Shown here one piece after another: positions 8,365-12,432 of a stretch of DNA of 49,163 nt; within the stretch, counting starts at the first letter, position 1, and each line of letters begins with the position of its first letter. The stretch covers positions 36,753 through 85,915 of the forward strand of contig CAJOCL010000007.1 in assembly GCA_905233565.1 (NCBI GenBank). The letters run 5' to 3'. The stretch is from an uncultured Synergistales bacterium (GTDB lineage Bacteria > Synergistota > Synergistia > Synergistales > Aminobacteriaceae). The translations under genes were made by a program, and so were the position numbers. The notes below the pieces were generated by a model. It did no database searches. It saw only the letters and a list, made by a program, of their open reading frames with translations, and was not told where the DNA came from.

Positions 8365-9183
8365 TTATTTCTTTCTGATGTGAAAGAACTTGTTCCAGCT
8401 GTAATACGGCCTCGAAAGCGTAACGCCTGCGGGAGCGTCCAAATTCCACGTGAAAGCCTCCGCAGTTTCATACCAGAACACGACATCAACGCGCCCTGAC
8501 AATAACGCGGTAGTCCTTGCGCCGGACTCAATGTTCACAAGCTCAATATTAACCTTCAGCCTGCGGGCAATTTCAGCAAGAAGAGCAGTGTTGAAACCTG
8601 AGGGCTTTCCGCTTGCATCAATGTAATCTATGGGCGGAAGATCTCCGGTTACGGCAGCCCTTATCGTCTCTGCTCCGTCATATTTCGTGAACTCTACGGG
8701 TTTATCTTTCTCATCGCTGTAGATGTAAATCCCCTGAATTTCCGGGAGTGTCCAGTCGTCTTCGAGTTCCTTAATAACTCTGTTGAATTTTTCTGCAAGT
8801 TTAACGTTTTTTGAATCAAAACCGAAAGCGAGGCTCATTGGCGCATTAGTTAATGAAACGCAGCATATTTCATAATCCGGGTTATTCTTCACGACATATT
8901 CTGCAACAATCTCAGGAAGTGCAATCTCATCAATATCGTGCCTGTCAATGGCCATAAGCATGGCATTCAGTGAGTCATAGAATTTCACTCCGTAAAGTTC
9001 ATGACGGTTTGAGAGAAGATTCCAGCCCGTTGTCCTGCGGCTGTCCTGAATGATTTTTGCAAAATTCTCCTCTGTCGTGTTCAGCCTCGTAAGGAAACCG
9101 ACCCTCACGGTCATAATTACGGAAGAATACGCGCACGAGGCAAGTATAACGGCAATGACTGACGCAAAAATTATTTTTTTCAC
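8365..9183 (-). CDS. Periplasmic solute-binding-like protein with two half-domains (SBP family 3-like)
   Basis: Exported protein of 272 residues. I place the start at the GTG at 9183, not further upstream, because a GGGAG box sits 7-11 bases before it and the protein then opens with a normal signal peptide (KKIIFASVIAVILASCAYSS). The C-terminal part (VTGDLPPIDYIDASGKPSGFN...LLSGRVDVVF...LSRPYYSW) is the first lobe of a family 3 binding protein. The segment before it (YDSLNAMLMAIDRHDIDEIA...NAPMSLAFGF...FNRVIKELEDDWTL) looks like a second lobe. The lobe order is thus reversed or made of two truncated copies. No permease or ATPase gene is adjacent. It may bind an amino-acid-like ligand or act as a sensor. 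Confidence 0.7.
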   Translation of the reverse strand: MKKIIFASVIAVILASCAYSSVIMTVRVGFLTRLNTTEENFAKIIQDSRRTTGWNLLSNRHELYGVKFYDSLNAMLMAIDRHDIDEIALPEIVAEYVVKNNPDYEICCVSLTNAPMSLAFGFDSKNVKLAEKFNRVIKELEDDWTLPEIQGIYIYSDEKDKPVEFTKYDGAETIRAAVTGDLPPIDYIDASGKPSGFNTALLAEIARRLKVNIELVNIESGARTTALLSGRVDVVFWYETAEAFTWNLDAPAGVTLSRPYYSWNKFFHIRKK

Positions 9184-9233
9184 GATTAAATATCTCCCTT
9201 CGGAAAGTTTATACACTTGTAATTATGATAACA

Positions 9234-9294: not shown

Positions 9295-10425
9295 CTATAC
9301 TTCAGGCTGAACGATTCCGATGAAAGTTTTCTTTCCGTTTTTAATCTCAACGATACCCATATCCTTTTCAGCGTCATGAGTAGCGTTGATTGTCGTCATT
9401 CCAGTAACTGTAGGAAGTCCCTTTGTTGCTTCGAGAGCATCGCGGATTTTCGCGGGTTCAAAACTGCCGGCTCTCTCGATTGCGTCTTTAAGAAGGATAT
9501 ATGCGTCATAGCCGAGAGCGCAGTTTACATTGGGGTCTTTGTCGGGGTGAGCCTTTTTCCATGCCTCAGTGAACGCCTTTGCAGTATCGTTCATTTCAGG
9601 CATTGACGGATCATAAGCAAATGTCGTGTGCATGAAGCCTTCAACTGCATCACCGCCGAGCGTTACGATTTCGGGGTTGTCCATTGCGTCAGCTCCGATA
9701 AATCTGAACGTTGCGCCCAGTTCTTTGGCCTGCTTGAGGACGATTGCACCCTCAGCAAAATAAGCAGGAAGGAAGACTATATCAGGCTTTGCTTCCATAA
9801 GGCTCGTAAGCTGTGCCGTGAAATCCGTATCTCCTGTCTGATACATGAGGCTTGCGACGATTTCTCCGCCCATTTTCTTGAAGGAATCGCGGAAAAATTT
9901 GCCAAGTCCGACGCTGTAATCATTCGACATGTCTACGAGCGTAGCAGCCCTCTTGAGATTGAGAGTTCTGAAAGCATAAGTTGCCGCACCTGCGCCCTGA
10001 AAAGGATCGATGAAGCAGACGCGGAAATAAAACTTTTTGCCGTCCGTAACAAGCGGATTCGTGCATGAAGTCCCGATTACGGGTATTCCGGCCTTCTCTG
10101 CGACTTCACCGCCGGCCATTGCGAGCGATGAACCGTATGTACCGATGATCGCGCATACTTTGTCGTTCTCAATGAGACGGGTTACGGCGTTTGCTGCCTC
10201 TACCTTGTCGGATTTGTTATCAACGATAACGAGTTCGACCTTTTTGCCGAGTATTGTCGGATTCAGCGAGTGTGCTAACTGTGTTCCCTCAAGTTCAAGC
10301 TGTCCGCCGAATGCGTTCTGACCCGTCAGGCAGTTGAATACTCCGATTCTGATTAGGTCATCATCAGCCGCAGCAACAGAACAGAACATTAATACGAGCA
10401 TTAACGCTGCTAAAAACTTACGCAT
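9295..10425 (-). CDS. Branched-chain amino-acid-type ABC transporter substrate-binding protein (LivJ/LivK family)
   Basis: Periplasmic binding protein of 376 residues (family 4 / Peripla_BP_6). It has a signal peptide (MRKFLAALMLVLMFCSVAAADD), then IRIGVFNCLTGQNAFGGQLELEG, the usual first strand and loop, VELVIVDNKSD, IIGTYGSSLAMAGGEVAEKAGIPVIGTSC and a C-terminal ALGYDAYILLKDAIERAG, all in family order. It delivers amino acids or related small ligands to an ABC permease. The livHMGF partners are not in the window, so the ligand and partner are unknown and it may serve a distant transporter. ATG start with AAGGAG 11 bases upstream. A TATAAT on the minus strand at 10470-10465 is a plausible -10, but its -35 is weak. 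Confidence 0.92.
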   Translation of the reverse strand: MRKFLAALMLVLMFCSVAAADDDLIRIGVFNCLTGQNAFGGQLELEGTQLAHSLNPTILGKKVELVIVDNKSDKVEAANAVTRLIENDKVCAIIGTYGSSLAMAGGEVAEKAGIPVIGTSCTNPLVTDGKKFYFRVCFIDPFQGAGAATYAFRTLNLKRAATLVDMSNDYSVGLGKFFRDSFKKMGGEIVASLMYQTGDTDFTAQLTSLMEAKPDIVFLPAYFAEGAIVLKQAKELGATFRFIGADAMDNPEIVTLGGDAVEGFMHTTFAYDPSMPEMNDTAKAFTEAWKKAHPDKDPNVNCALGYDAYILLKDAIERAGSFEPAKIRDALEATKGLPTVTGMTTINATHDAEKDMGIVEIKNGKKTFIGIVQPEV

Positions 10426-10493: not shown

Positions 10494-10522
10494 TTGACAA
10501 TTAAAGCAATTTATGTGATTAT
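10494..10522 (+). promoter_or_regulatory. Consensus sigma-70-type promoter for the AroB-like gene leader
   Basis: A perfect -35 TTGACA (10494-10499), 17-base spacer and GATTAT (10517-10522) with an extended TG element just upstream. Transcription would begin near 10529, giving a leader of about 250 nt before the ATG at 10776. The leader holds the aromatic-rich ORF and the terminator listed below. Confidence 0.75.
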
Positions 10523-10559
10523 TTTAGCGTTAAATTTTTAGAGGAGTTTTTAATTTAGA

Positions 10560-10655
10560 GTGAATATTCTTACATTAGCAGCAAATTGTGAATTTAAGTT
10601 CAGCTTTAACCGCTGGTATTGGTTCCAGAGGGCAAATTTGCTTTGGCTGACGTAA
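10560..10655 (+). CDS. Putative aromatic-rich leader peptide (31 aa)
   Basis: Short ORF starting at GTG 10560 and ending with TAA at 10653-10655. Its middle reads FKFSFNRWYWF, and a further Trp occurs at position 29: 8 of 31 residues are Phe, Trp or Tyr, and 7 of these fall within 11 consecutive codons. Leader peptides of trp- and phe-type attenuators have this composition. It lies 31 bases after the predicted transcription start and 50 bases before an intrinsic terminator that precedes an AroB-family gene. An AGGAG sits at 10542-10546, but the spacing to the GTG is 13 bases, longer than ideal, and the start codon is not ATG; these are the main weaknesses. The ORF is too short for database-style recognition. 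Confidence 0.6.
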   Translation: MNILTLAANCEFKFSFNRWYWFQRANLLWLT

Positions 10656-10748
10656 GGGAAAGACAGGCTCATAACGTTTTTAAGTTAAACGGAAAAGATT
10701 AAAACAACACCTTCTGAATCAGTCAAAGATTTTCAGGAGGTGTTTTTT
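10641..10748 (+). promoter_or_regulatory. Candidate transcription attenuator (terminator with competing antiterminator pairing)
   Basis: Terminator: AACACCTTCTGAA (10706-10718) pairs with 10732-10744 (13 bp, one G-U) and runs into six U (10743-10748). Competing pairing: CTTTGGCTGA (10641-10650), the last codons of the leader ORF, is complementary over 10 bp (one G-U) to TCAGTCAAAG (10719-10728) in the terminator loop. A ribosome paused on the Trp/Tyr codons at 10614-10622 would leave 10641-10650 free, while one reaching the stop at 10653 would cover it and let the terminator form. The base pairs are read from the sequence; the mechanism is inference. Confidence 0.55.
10706..10748 (+). terminator. 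Intrinsic terminator inside the leader of the AroB-like gene
   Basis: 13-bp stem (one G-U), 13-base loop, six U. It lies between a strong promoter and the start codon at 10776, and no other plus-strand gene upstream needs terminating, so it most likely controls read-through into the AroB-like gene. Confidence 0.8.
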
Positions 10749-10775
10749 ATCGACAGGAAGGAATGAAATTTAGCA

Positions 10776-11849
10776 ATGCCAGCAAACGTAAATGTCAGGA
10801 TGAACGCTGAACAAAGCTACAGCATAAAGATACGCAGAGGGATAATCGAGCGTCTTGGGATTGAGATTCTCAGGCTCTGCGACGATTCATATGCTGAGAT
10901 TTTGATCATAACTGACGAAAAAGTATCAGGCTTGTACCTTCAGCAGGTAATCATGAACTTTCAGGAATGCCCAAAACCGAAGGGAATGCGCCTCAGAATC
11001 TGCGAAATCCTCATCGACTCCCGCGAAGCCTCAAAAAACTTTCAGACCGTTGCAAAATTACTTGATGACATGGCCGCTCTTGGACTATCGGGAAAGTGTA
11101 TTGTCGTTGCACTGGGCGGCGGTGTAGTCTGCGATGCTGCCGGATTTGCTGCCGGCTGCTACATGGGGGGAGTGAGGCTCGTTCTTGTTCCGACGACATT
11201 ATCAGCAATGATTGAAGTTTCAGCGTGGGGGAATGCCCTTCTGAATCTGAGTGCAGGGAAAAATCTGGCCGGTATGTCCTGCAGGCCTTCGGTTGTAATA
11301 TGCGATACGGACTGCCTGAAGACGCTTTCACATGAAGAATATAAATCAGGAATTGCGGAAACGTTAAAGACGGCCATAATGTCGGGCGAGGAACTTTTCA
11401 GGATATTTGAGCGCGGAGACGTTCAGAATAACATTGAGCGCGTCATAGAAGGCTGCATAAAATACAGGGCAAACCTTAAATCAGAACTGAGGACAAAATG
11501 TCTCGGCTATTCACTCGGAAACGCTATAGAGAGCCTGAGCGGTTACGAAATACAGCACGGCTTTGCATTGTCTCAGGGCATCGCAATAACTGCCGGAATA
11601 TCGGCTGAAATGGGCTGGTGCAGCAAAGAGACGGCATCAAGAATAATAAATGCACTCTCAAAAAATGAACTTCCTGTAACATGCCGGAAATACAGCGCGC
11701 ATTTAATCTCACAGACATTACTGCAGGGGCGCAAAATTTCAGACGGGATAATTGAACTTGCCGCAATATCTGAAATCGGGAAATGCTGCATCATGAATAT
11801 TAAAGCAGGTGAACTTGAAGATATTATTTCGGCGGGCATTAATGCCTAA
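10776..11849 (+). CDS. 3-dehydroquinate synthase-like protein (AroB family, divergent active site)
   Basis: AroB-family protein, 357 residues, the family's normal length. Recognisable elements are GGGVVCDAAGFAAGCYMGG (114-132, NAD-binding), LVPTTL (137-142), AGKNLAG (160-166), SGIAETLKTAI (191-201, keeping the metal-ligand Glu195 and Lys198) and QHG (His261). Canonical AroB turns DAHP into 3-dehydroquinate, the second shikimate step, using NAD and Zn or Co. Here the GHTFGHAIE motif reads GYSLGNAIE (244-252): a metal-ligand His and the neighbouring catalytic His are Tyr245 and Asn249. The region VDSSVGGK reads IEVSAWGN, and the C-terminal DKK reads GRK. Catalysis by the usual route is doubtful. 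An aromatic leader peptide upstream still links it to aromatic amino acids. SD AGGAAGGA lies about 14 bases before the ATG. Confidence 0.8.
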   Translation: MPANVNVRMNAEQSYSIKIRRGIIERLGIEILRLCDDSYAEILIITDEKVSGLYLQQVIMNFQECPKPKGMRLRICEILIDSREASKNFQTVAKLLDDMAALGLSGKCIVVALGGGVVCDAAGFAAGCYMGGVRLVLVPTTLSAMIEVSAWGNALLNLSAGKNLAGMSCRPSVVICDTDCLKTLSHEEYKSGIAETLKTAIMSGEELFRIFERGDVQNNIERVIEGCIKYRANLKSELRTKCLGYSLGNAIESLSGYEIQHGFALSQGIAITAGISAEMGWCSKETASRIINALSKNELPVTCRKYSAHLISQTLLQGRKISDGIIELAAISEIGKCCIMNIKAGELEDIISAGINA

Positions 11850-11901
11850 AGTGTAATATAATATTAATACTAACTATATAACTTTTCAGGTGGTGTCAAG
11901 A

Positions 11902-12432
11902 ATGGACATTCGTTTTGTACAACGGGGCTGCGAAATAGATGACAGACTCAGGGATTACATGGAGAAGAAGATTTCAAAACTCGAAAAATTCTTCAAACGT
12001 ATCCTTAACTGCCAGATAGTCGTAACCCATCACAAGGGCAGCTTCAACGTTGAGACTACGGCCAATGCAAACGGTGTAATTCTCAGGGCTGAAGAAGATG
12101 CAGCGGAACCCAGAAAGGCATTTGACCAGTCTCTGAAGAATCTTGAGCGCAGAATAAAGAAGTATAATTCATATCTCAAGGACAGGGCGCAGCTCGGTGC
12201 AGGTGAAGACTTCTCGTTCAGCCTCGATGAGCCGGAGACGGATTCAAACTCTCCCGTAATCGACAAGGTTAAAAAAGTTGAAGTTCACCCGATGGAAGCA
12301 GCAGAAGCCGTAATGCAGATGGAACTTGTCGGACATGCTTTCTTCGTCTTCCAGAACGCCGCGACAGGTGAAATTAACGTGGTCTACAAACGCGGAGAGA
12401 ACAGTTACGGACTTATTGAACCCGTAAGGTAA
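11902..12432 (+). CDS. hpf: Long-form ribosome hibernation promoting factor
   Basis: Binds the 30S decoding centre in stationary phase and, through its C-terminal domain, dimerises ribosomes into 100S particles. It is 176 residues from the ATG at 11902, which an AGGTGG box precedes by about 7 bases; a GTG four codons earlier overlaps that SD and is less likely. The N-terminal S30AE domain (MDIRFVQRGCEIDDRLRDYMEKK onwards, residues 1-100) has the basic RRIKKYN segment. An acidic linker follows, then the C-terminal dimerisation domain (VKKVEVHPMEAAEAVMQM...GHAFFVFQNAATGEINVVYKR). It lies 52 bases after the AroB-like stop and may be read through from it, but it has its own terminator. Confidence 0.95.
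   Translation: MDIRFVQRGCEIDDRLRDYMEKKISKLEKFFKRILNCQIVVTHHKGSFNVETTANANGVILRAEEDAAEPRKAFDQSLKNLERRIKKYNSYLKDRAQLGAGEDFSFSLDEPETDSNSPVIDKVKKVEVHPMEAAEAVMQMELVGHAFFVFQNAATGEINVVYKRGENSYGLIEPVR

Follow-up and report, generated by a model that had tools for sequence, protein, structure and literature searches.

The window, the whole stretch of 49,163 nucleotides from an uncultured Synergistales bacterium that was analysed, contains a short leader region ahead of a gene whose product is homologous to AroB (3-dehydroquinate synthase, DHQS). The AroB-like gene is followed by hpf. The features of the locus, all on the plus strand, are the following.

10494..10522, +, sigma-70-type promoter (TTGACA at 10494-10499, 17-base spacer, GATTAT at 10517-10522, TGn in front)
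10540..10546, +, Shine-Dalgarno sequence AGAGGAG, spaced 13 nt from the GTG of the leader ORF
10560..10655, +, predicted leader peptide ORF of 31 codons (GTG at 10560, stop TAA at 10653-10655; frame open in 24/24 leaders)
10569..10579, +, region 1, 5' arm of a predicted hairpin sequestering region 2 (pairs with 10646-10656)
10593..10625, +, putative aromatic sensor codons FKFSFNRWYWF, 7/11 aromatic
10641..10656, +, region 2, ORF end with the stop codon, predicted to pair with either region 1 or region 3
10707..10748, +, predicted intrinsic terminator (12-bp stem 10707-10718/10732-10743, six T at 10743-10748)
10719..10728, +, region 3, the terminator's apical loop and putative antiterminator partner of 10641-10650
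10776..11849, +, AroB-like protein of 357 aa, predicted DHQS fold with degraded active site (TIGR01357, structure model, residues)
11857..11862, +, TATAAT, putative -10 element of hpf's own promoter, retained even in genomes in which hpf and the AroB-like gene are not neighbours
11908..12432, +, hpf, ribosome hibernation factor (TIGR00741, 60.4 bits, cut-off 40.9), a possible target of read-through

On the minus strand a divergent gene for a branched-chain amino acid type substrate-binding protein (9295-10425) adjoins the leader. An ORF resembling a periplasmic binding protein (8365-9216, also minus) lies beyond it.

The leader ORF and its predicted switch

The leader ORF has 31 sense codons and encodes VNILTLAANCEFKFSFNRWYWFQRANLLWLT. 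Among the 747 short ORFs (15-60 aa) of the whole window it is the only one with 7 aromatic residues in 11 codons; the leaders of relatives carry 7-13 aromatic codons each. In 24 aligned leaders the start codon was GTG (20), TTG (3) or ATG (1), with no others. Over the first 25 codons these leaders had no in-frame stops in frame 0 versus 27 and 63 in the other frames, and the share of Phe, Trp and Tyr in codons 10-25 was 51% in frame 0 versus 6% and 10%. In the aromatic stretch, synonymous changes made up no larger a share in frame 0 than in either alternative frame, so the case for coding is made by frame openness and composition. On these grounds the leader ORF is a predicted translated ORF rich in codons for the amino acids sensed.

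TTGACA and a TGTGTAATTATT-like -10 element are retained upstream of the relatives' genes. The distance from Shine-Dalgarno sequence to start is 12-14 nt in the relatives inspected, and the long spacing in the window is therefore a conserved feature. A sequence-only reading of this locus had described the promoter at 10494-10522, the GTG-started ORF and the FKFSFNRWYWF run, all of which are present within 1-2 bases of where it put them; the GTG start and long Shine-Dalgarno spacing on which it had urged caution are real and shared with relatives. Its terminator had a 13-bp stem and six U. The six T are in place and the stem is 12 bp long.

Across the aligned leaders the terminator stem was 99% paired, with 14 double-changed cells versus 2.4 in shuffles, and this pairing and covariation support a predicted intrinsic terminator ahead of the gene. 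The earlier reading had also noted a 10-bp complementarity between the end of the ORF and the terminator loop. This pairing, CTTTGGCTGA (10641-10650) with TCAGTCAAAG (10719-10728), one G-U among its ten base pairs, is present and covaries in relatives: helix 2:3 was paired in 93% of cells, with 9 double-changed cells versus a shuffled mean of 1.4 (0/500 shuffles). Compensated forms are seen in L052 (TTTGCTGA/TCAGCAAA), L053 (TCTTGGCTG/CAGCTAAGA), L056 (GCTGTATGCTG/CAGTAAACAGC) and L058 (GATTCGGCTG/CAGTCGAATC). The mean fit of cognate region 2 and loop sequences among the genus leaders was above all of 20000/20000 permutations, a test that is slightly conservative because L052 was mis-anchored in it and that, like the shuffles, ignores the kinship between leaders.

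A further helix, absent from the earlier reading, is formed by region 1, CTTAC.TTAGC (10569-10579), which is complementary to GCTGACGTAAG (10646-10656). Helix 1:2 was paired in 90% of cells, with 13 double-changed cells versus a shuffled mean of 4.2 (0/500 shuffles); it is a predicted sequestering hairpin, weak in some relatives. Lengthening the antiterminator by AAGG:CCTT, into the arm of the terminator, gave 85% pairing and no covariation, and this extension was left out. The two most divergent leaders (L060, L062) retain the ORF end and the switch poorly. The fold of the leader region is more stable than that of shuffles (z = -2.3). Searches with Rfam gave no family at gathering score for the window's leader and no amino-acid leader family among its matches up to E 10, and none of the amino-acid leader families (Trp_leader, Phe_leader, His_leader, others) was found in 14 further loci, mostly of DAHP synthase. 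As Rfam gave no match, identity as a T-box, a riboswitch or an Rfam leader was ruled out.

The behaviour of the switch was examined with a simple model in which a ribosome footprint was imposed on the transcript, folded through region 3. The median probability of the antiterminator helix across leaders was 0.11 with the ribosome absent, and it fell to 0.00 when the ribosome stood close to the stop codon. With a stall at the aromatic codons it was 0.58 when the upstream RNA may re-pair and 0.90 when it may not. For the leader of the window itself, the antiterminator was favoured by a stall at F12, and the outcome of stalls at W19-W21 depended on the re-pairing of region 1 around the ribosome; late stalls in WYWF gave an intermediate antiterminator probability if the RNA 5' of the ribosome pairs freely. 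From the 2:3 covariation and this folding, the antiterminator is predicted to compete with the terminator and to be blocked when the ORF is completed.

We infer the order in which the ORF and the three helices would act from known attenuators. With no stalled ribosome, or with the ORF finished, region 2 would lie under the ribosome or be held by region 1, and with region 2 covered or held the terminator would form and transcription would end at about 10748. A stall at the Phe, Tyr or Trp codons 12-22 would cover region 1 or draw it into the ribosome, leaving region 2 free. Free region 2 would pair with region 3, the loop of the terminator, while the terminator's 3' arm is still to be made, and with the 2:3 helix formed RNA polymerase would read through into the AroB-like gene. 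The signal sensed would be aromatic aminoacyl-tRNA, by ribosome-mediated transcription attenuation. In everything that computation can show, the leader is a textbook example of such a predicted attenuator. The translation-coupled attenuation put forward in the sequence-only reading is supported by the comparison, with ORF and helices conserved and covarying and the stall folding in agreement; in relatives the terminator, the aromatic ORF and the 2:3 pairing are retained together, with compensatory changes, so that the comparative test set out in that reading did not refute it.

The AroB-like protein and the aromatic pathway of its hosts

The AroB-like protein is the sole match to TIGR01357 in its own genome, and its score of 204.6 bits is below the cut-off of 305, which was missed also by 4 of 13 control genomes with a match. 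The structure model has a pLDDT of 90, and its best PDB matches are all DHQS enzymes (TM about 0.88 to 3okf); on this model the protein has the predicted fold of DHQS. We compared 12 active-site positions, constant in 12 canonical AroBs, in 22 full-length AroB-like proteins, using residue numbers that we take to be those of the Aspergillus DHQS enzyme. The equivalents of K152, R264, H271 and H275 are present in 12/12 canonical proteins and in 0/22 AroB-like proteins. D146, N268 and K356 are each found in 1/22 and K250 in 2/22, whereas N162 (20/22), E194 (20/22), K197 (19/22) and H287 (22/22) are retained. DHQS catalytic residues have been lost in all 22 full-length orthologues, one metal histidine being among the losses. 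An AroB would be expected to bind its metal through Glu, His and His and to have catalytic Lys, Arg, Asn and His; judged by this alignment, the set is incomplete.

The protein is nevertheless conserved. Close pairs of AroB-like genes gave dN/dS values of 0.06-0.14 (about 0.1), which indicates strong purifying selection, and in a phylogenetic tree the AroB-like clade is monophyletic with canonical Synergistaceae AroB and has a long stem branch. Two variants were noted. In G007 and G019 (L059, L061) the protein ends at 236 aa and is without its C-terminal domain, with the leader, the ORF and purifying selection remaining. In G023 (L011/L057) the gene has an in-frame insertion in its middle (1188 nt match versus 1071 nt).

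Chorismate synthase (AroC) is absent from 30/30 genomes that have both the leader and the AroB-like gene, and from every genome of the genus searched, nearly complete ones included, save G018, G020, G036 and G062. DAHP synthase above the cut-off occurs within the genus only in G018 and G062, and in none of the tested genomes with leader and AroB-like gene. The genome of the window (G000) has no AroC, DAHP synthase or AroA, the nearest matches being KdsA and MurA; the shikimate pathway is absent from it. Its TrpB is a distant homologue only (143 bits versus a cut-off of 392). An indolepyruvate:ferredoxin oxidoreductase alpha subunit and the distant TrpB homologue are found at G000:C2:166694-168409 and G000:C7:8020-9093. 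Since the shikimate pathway is absent, the organism most likely imports aromatic amino acids or derives them from aryl acids, the second route being a guess.

The lost residues and the absent pathway rule out that the gene is a functional aroB. The target proposed in the sequence-only reading, an AroB-like gene, is thus correct as to homology and does not extend to AroB function. The product is almost certainly, as far as its residues and the gene content of its hosts can tell, a DHQS homologue without DHQS activity, under selection in bacteria unable to make chorismate. Because the gene is non-functional as aroB and the shikimate pathway is absent, read-through cannot simply restore aromatic synthesis. 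The protein might instead still have catalytic activity, as an altered DHQS or a different sugar-phosphate cyclase on an unknown route to aromatic compounds, which we consider unlikely. Such a role would agree with the retained fold and partly retained NAD-site motif, with a metal Glu kept in most proteins and one metal His kept in all, and with the predicted control of the gene by aromatic amino acids. However, the second metal His and several active-site positions are lost with no one constant replacement residue, two species lack the C-terminal domain, and the upstream and downstream enzymes are missing.

No terminator was seen between the AroB-like gene and hpf, and hpf lies directly 3' of the AroB-like gene in most relatives, including nearly all leader genomes. 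Read-through from the leader into hpf is possible, but hpf has a putative promoter of its own. That the attenuator mainly governs hpf, so that aromatic starvation would raise the hibernation factor in an auxotroph with the AroB-like ORF as a passenger, is less probable still than a surviving enzyme, even though leader and hpf stay in G007 and G019 where the AroB-like protein is cut short. A TATAAT at hpf was found in every genome inspected, even where hpf lies elsewhere, G012 has leader and AroB-like gene on one contig and hpf on another, and purifying selection acts on the AroB-like protein, even in the truncated pair. Given the separate TATAAT and the arrangement in G012, hpf as the sole target of the attenuator is not favoured.

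Distribution and origin of the leader

AroB-like orthologues with 60-76% identity occur in many species of one uncultured Synergistaceae genus, and the named records of these relatives come for the most part from the gut or rumen of goat and deer. The ORF, the aromatic run, the terminator and the 2:3 pairing are found again ahead of the orthologous gene in about 30 species of this rumen genus. A covariance model built from 24 genus leaders found leaders in 32 genus genomes (E about 1e-10 or better), ahead of the AroB-like gene in 30 and ahead of tyrA-aroA in 2, G020 and G036, followed in G036 by aroC, pheA and aroK (loci L101, L103, L148). These two genomes, which are 79-83% complete, gave no match to the AroB-like protein or to class-I DAHP synthase. 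Weak matches of the model (E 0.002-0.1; G029, G035, G024, G036:C48, G000:C2, others) were mostly plain terminators with no aromatic ORF and were rejected. The model found no leader in G018 or G062, which have both DAHP synthase and AroC, and inspection showed none ahead of DAHP synthase in these two genomes nor ahead of aroB in G018.

The sequence-only reading had called the attenuation of an aroB-type gene by a mixed F/W/Y leader unusual. Mixed F/W/Y leaders are not unusual in the order, in which most DAHP synthase genes examined have one: an aromatic leader was found upstream of DAHP synthase in 24/30 Synergistales loci, typically encoding YYF..GQWR(Y/F)YYASG. In these leaders the 3' part of the ORF (e.g. 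CGTGGAAATCCG) is complementary to the terminator loop and inner stem (CCGGATTTCCACA), with compensated pairing in L134 (GTAGAGATCCG/CGGGTTTCTAC), L142 (TGAAAATCGG/CCGGTTTTCA) and L120 (GCGATTCGTGC/GCACGGGATCGC). Cognate pairing exceeded 20000/20000 permutations in a set of 22 DAHP synthase leaders, for one of which (L133) the automatic terminator finder had taken a wrong hairpin. The DAHP synthase leaders L099/L100 and L117, from the window's own family, have a TTGGCTG-type region 2 in common. The leader of the AroB-like gene is most likely descended from an attenuator that controls aromatic synthesis in other members of the order, at DAHP synthase or at tyrA operons.

Conserved parts of the peptide, such as LWLT at its end in the genus leaders and GQWR(Y/F)YYASG across the order, might suggest a nascent-chain arrest peptide that, like TnaC, senses a free small molecule and not charged tRNA. 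This is very unlikely, since LWLT overlaps RNA region 2 and changes with the RNA (IRLT in L044, RLLT in L052, CMLT in L056) with pairing retained, and since aromatic residues differ freely among leaders in how many there are and where they stand, which a codon sensor would lead one to expect. That the terminator and its leader are a fossil whose regulation has been lost along with the biosynthetic pathway is the least credible reading, as compensatory changes in all three helices and open aromatic frames in 24/24 leaders point to continuing selection on the switch.

The likeliest history is that an order-wide attenuator of aromatic synthesis outlived its pathway on a degenerate AroB. We are confident, though not certain, that the locus is an aromatic-tRNA attenuator on a DHQS homologue without DHQS activity and that the leader descends from the attenuator of aromatic synthesis of the order. 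More tentatively, with a chance somewhat short of even, the attenuator was kept after pathway loss on a catalytically dead AroB that acquired a new, non-DHQS role in responding to aromatic starvation, such as that of a regulator, a scaffold or a binding protein. A single predicted attenuator design, ORF end paired with terminator loop, is spread across the order and sits on pathway genes that differ by lineage (DAHP synthase, tyrA-aroA, AroB-like). In one genus it would have outlived the pathway and would drive a conserved protein whose active site is dead. This offers a testable pseudoenzyme case, in which regulation would tell when the AroB-like protein is needed, its job aside.

Comparison with known systems

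Attenuation of shikimate genes has been described elsewhere. The aroR leader of Corynebacterium glutamicum aroF mediates control by Phe and Tyr (Neshat et al. 2014, as described in PMC7356990 and PMC6892785). By that description it is alike in placing an aromatic leader peptide before a shikimate-pathway gene (DAHP synthase); it belongs to another phylum and has a functional biosynthetic target. In Acholeplasma, uORFC-13-1 combines a uORF and a terminator upstream of aroF and is a proposed attenuator (PMC8632094). Unlike the leader studied here its U run codes for Phe only, and it is confined to Acholeplasma and unassigned environmental sequences (PMC8632094). The legend to Fig. 6b of Stav et al. 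2019 (PMC6429828) gives two F/Y-rich uORFs at shikimate genes from a survey of five genomes. These genomes include the Synergistete Thermovirga lienii, and one of the uORFs may therefore be the DAHP synthase leader seen here; the main text names no genome for the uORFs, and the paper does not deal with AroB-like proteins or rumen genomes. A search of the open-access literature on attenuation and leader peptides in Synergistetes turned up nothing on aromatic genes in the phylum and, the possible motif of Stav et al. 2019 aside, no described aromatic attenuator in Synergistales.

Compared with AroB itself, the AroB-like protein is alike in fold and ancestry and unlike in its lost catalytic residues, its score below the TIGR01357 cut-off and its lack of a pathway. 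The leader resembles the trp, phe and his leader attenuators of Proteobacteria in its short ORF rich in the regulated amino acids, its 1:2, 2:3 and terminator structures and a promoter close upstream. It differs from them in that region 1 precedes and region 2 follows the aromatic codons, the terminator contributes its apical loop, not its 5' arm, as region 3, and Phe, Trp and Tyr codons are mixed in a leader with no Rfam match. The attenuation mechanism is of a known kind; the target gene is the surprise.
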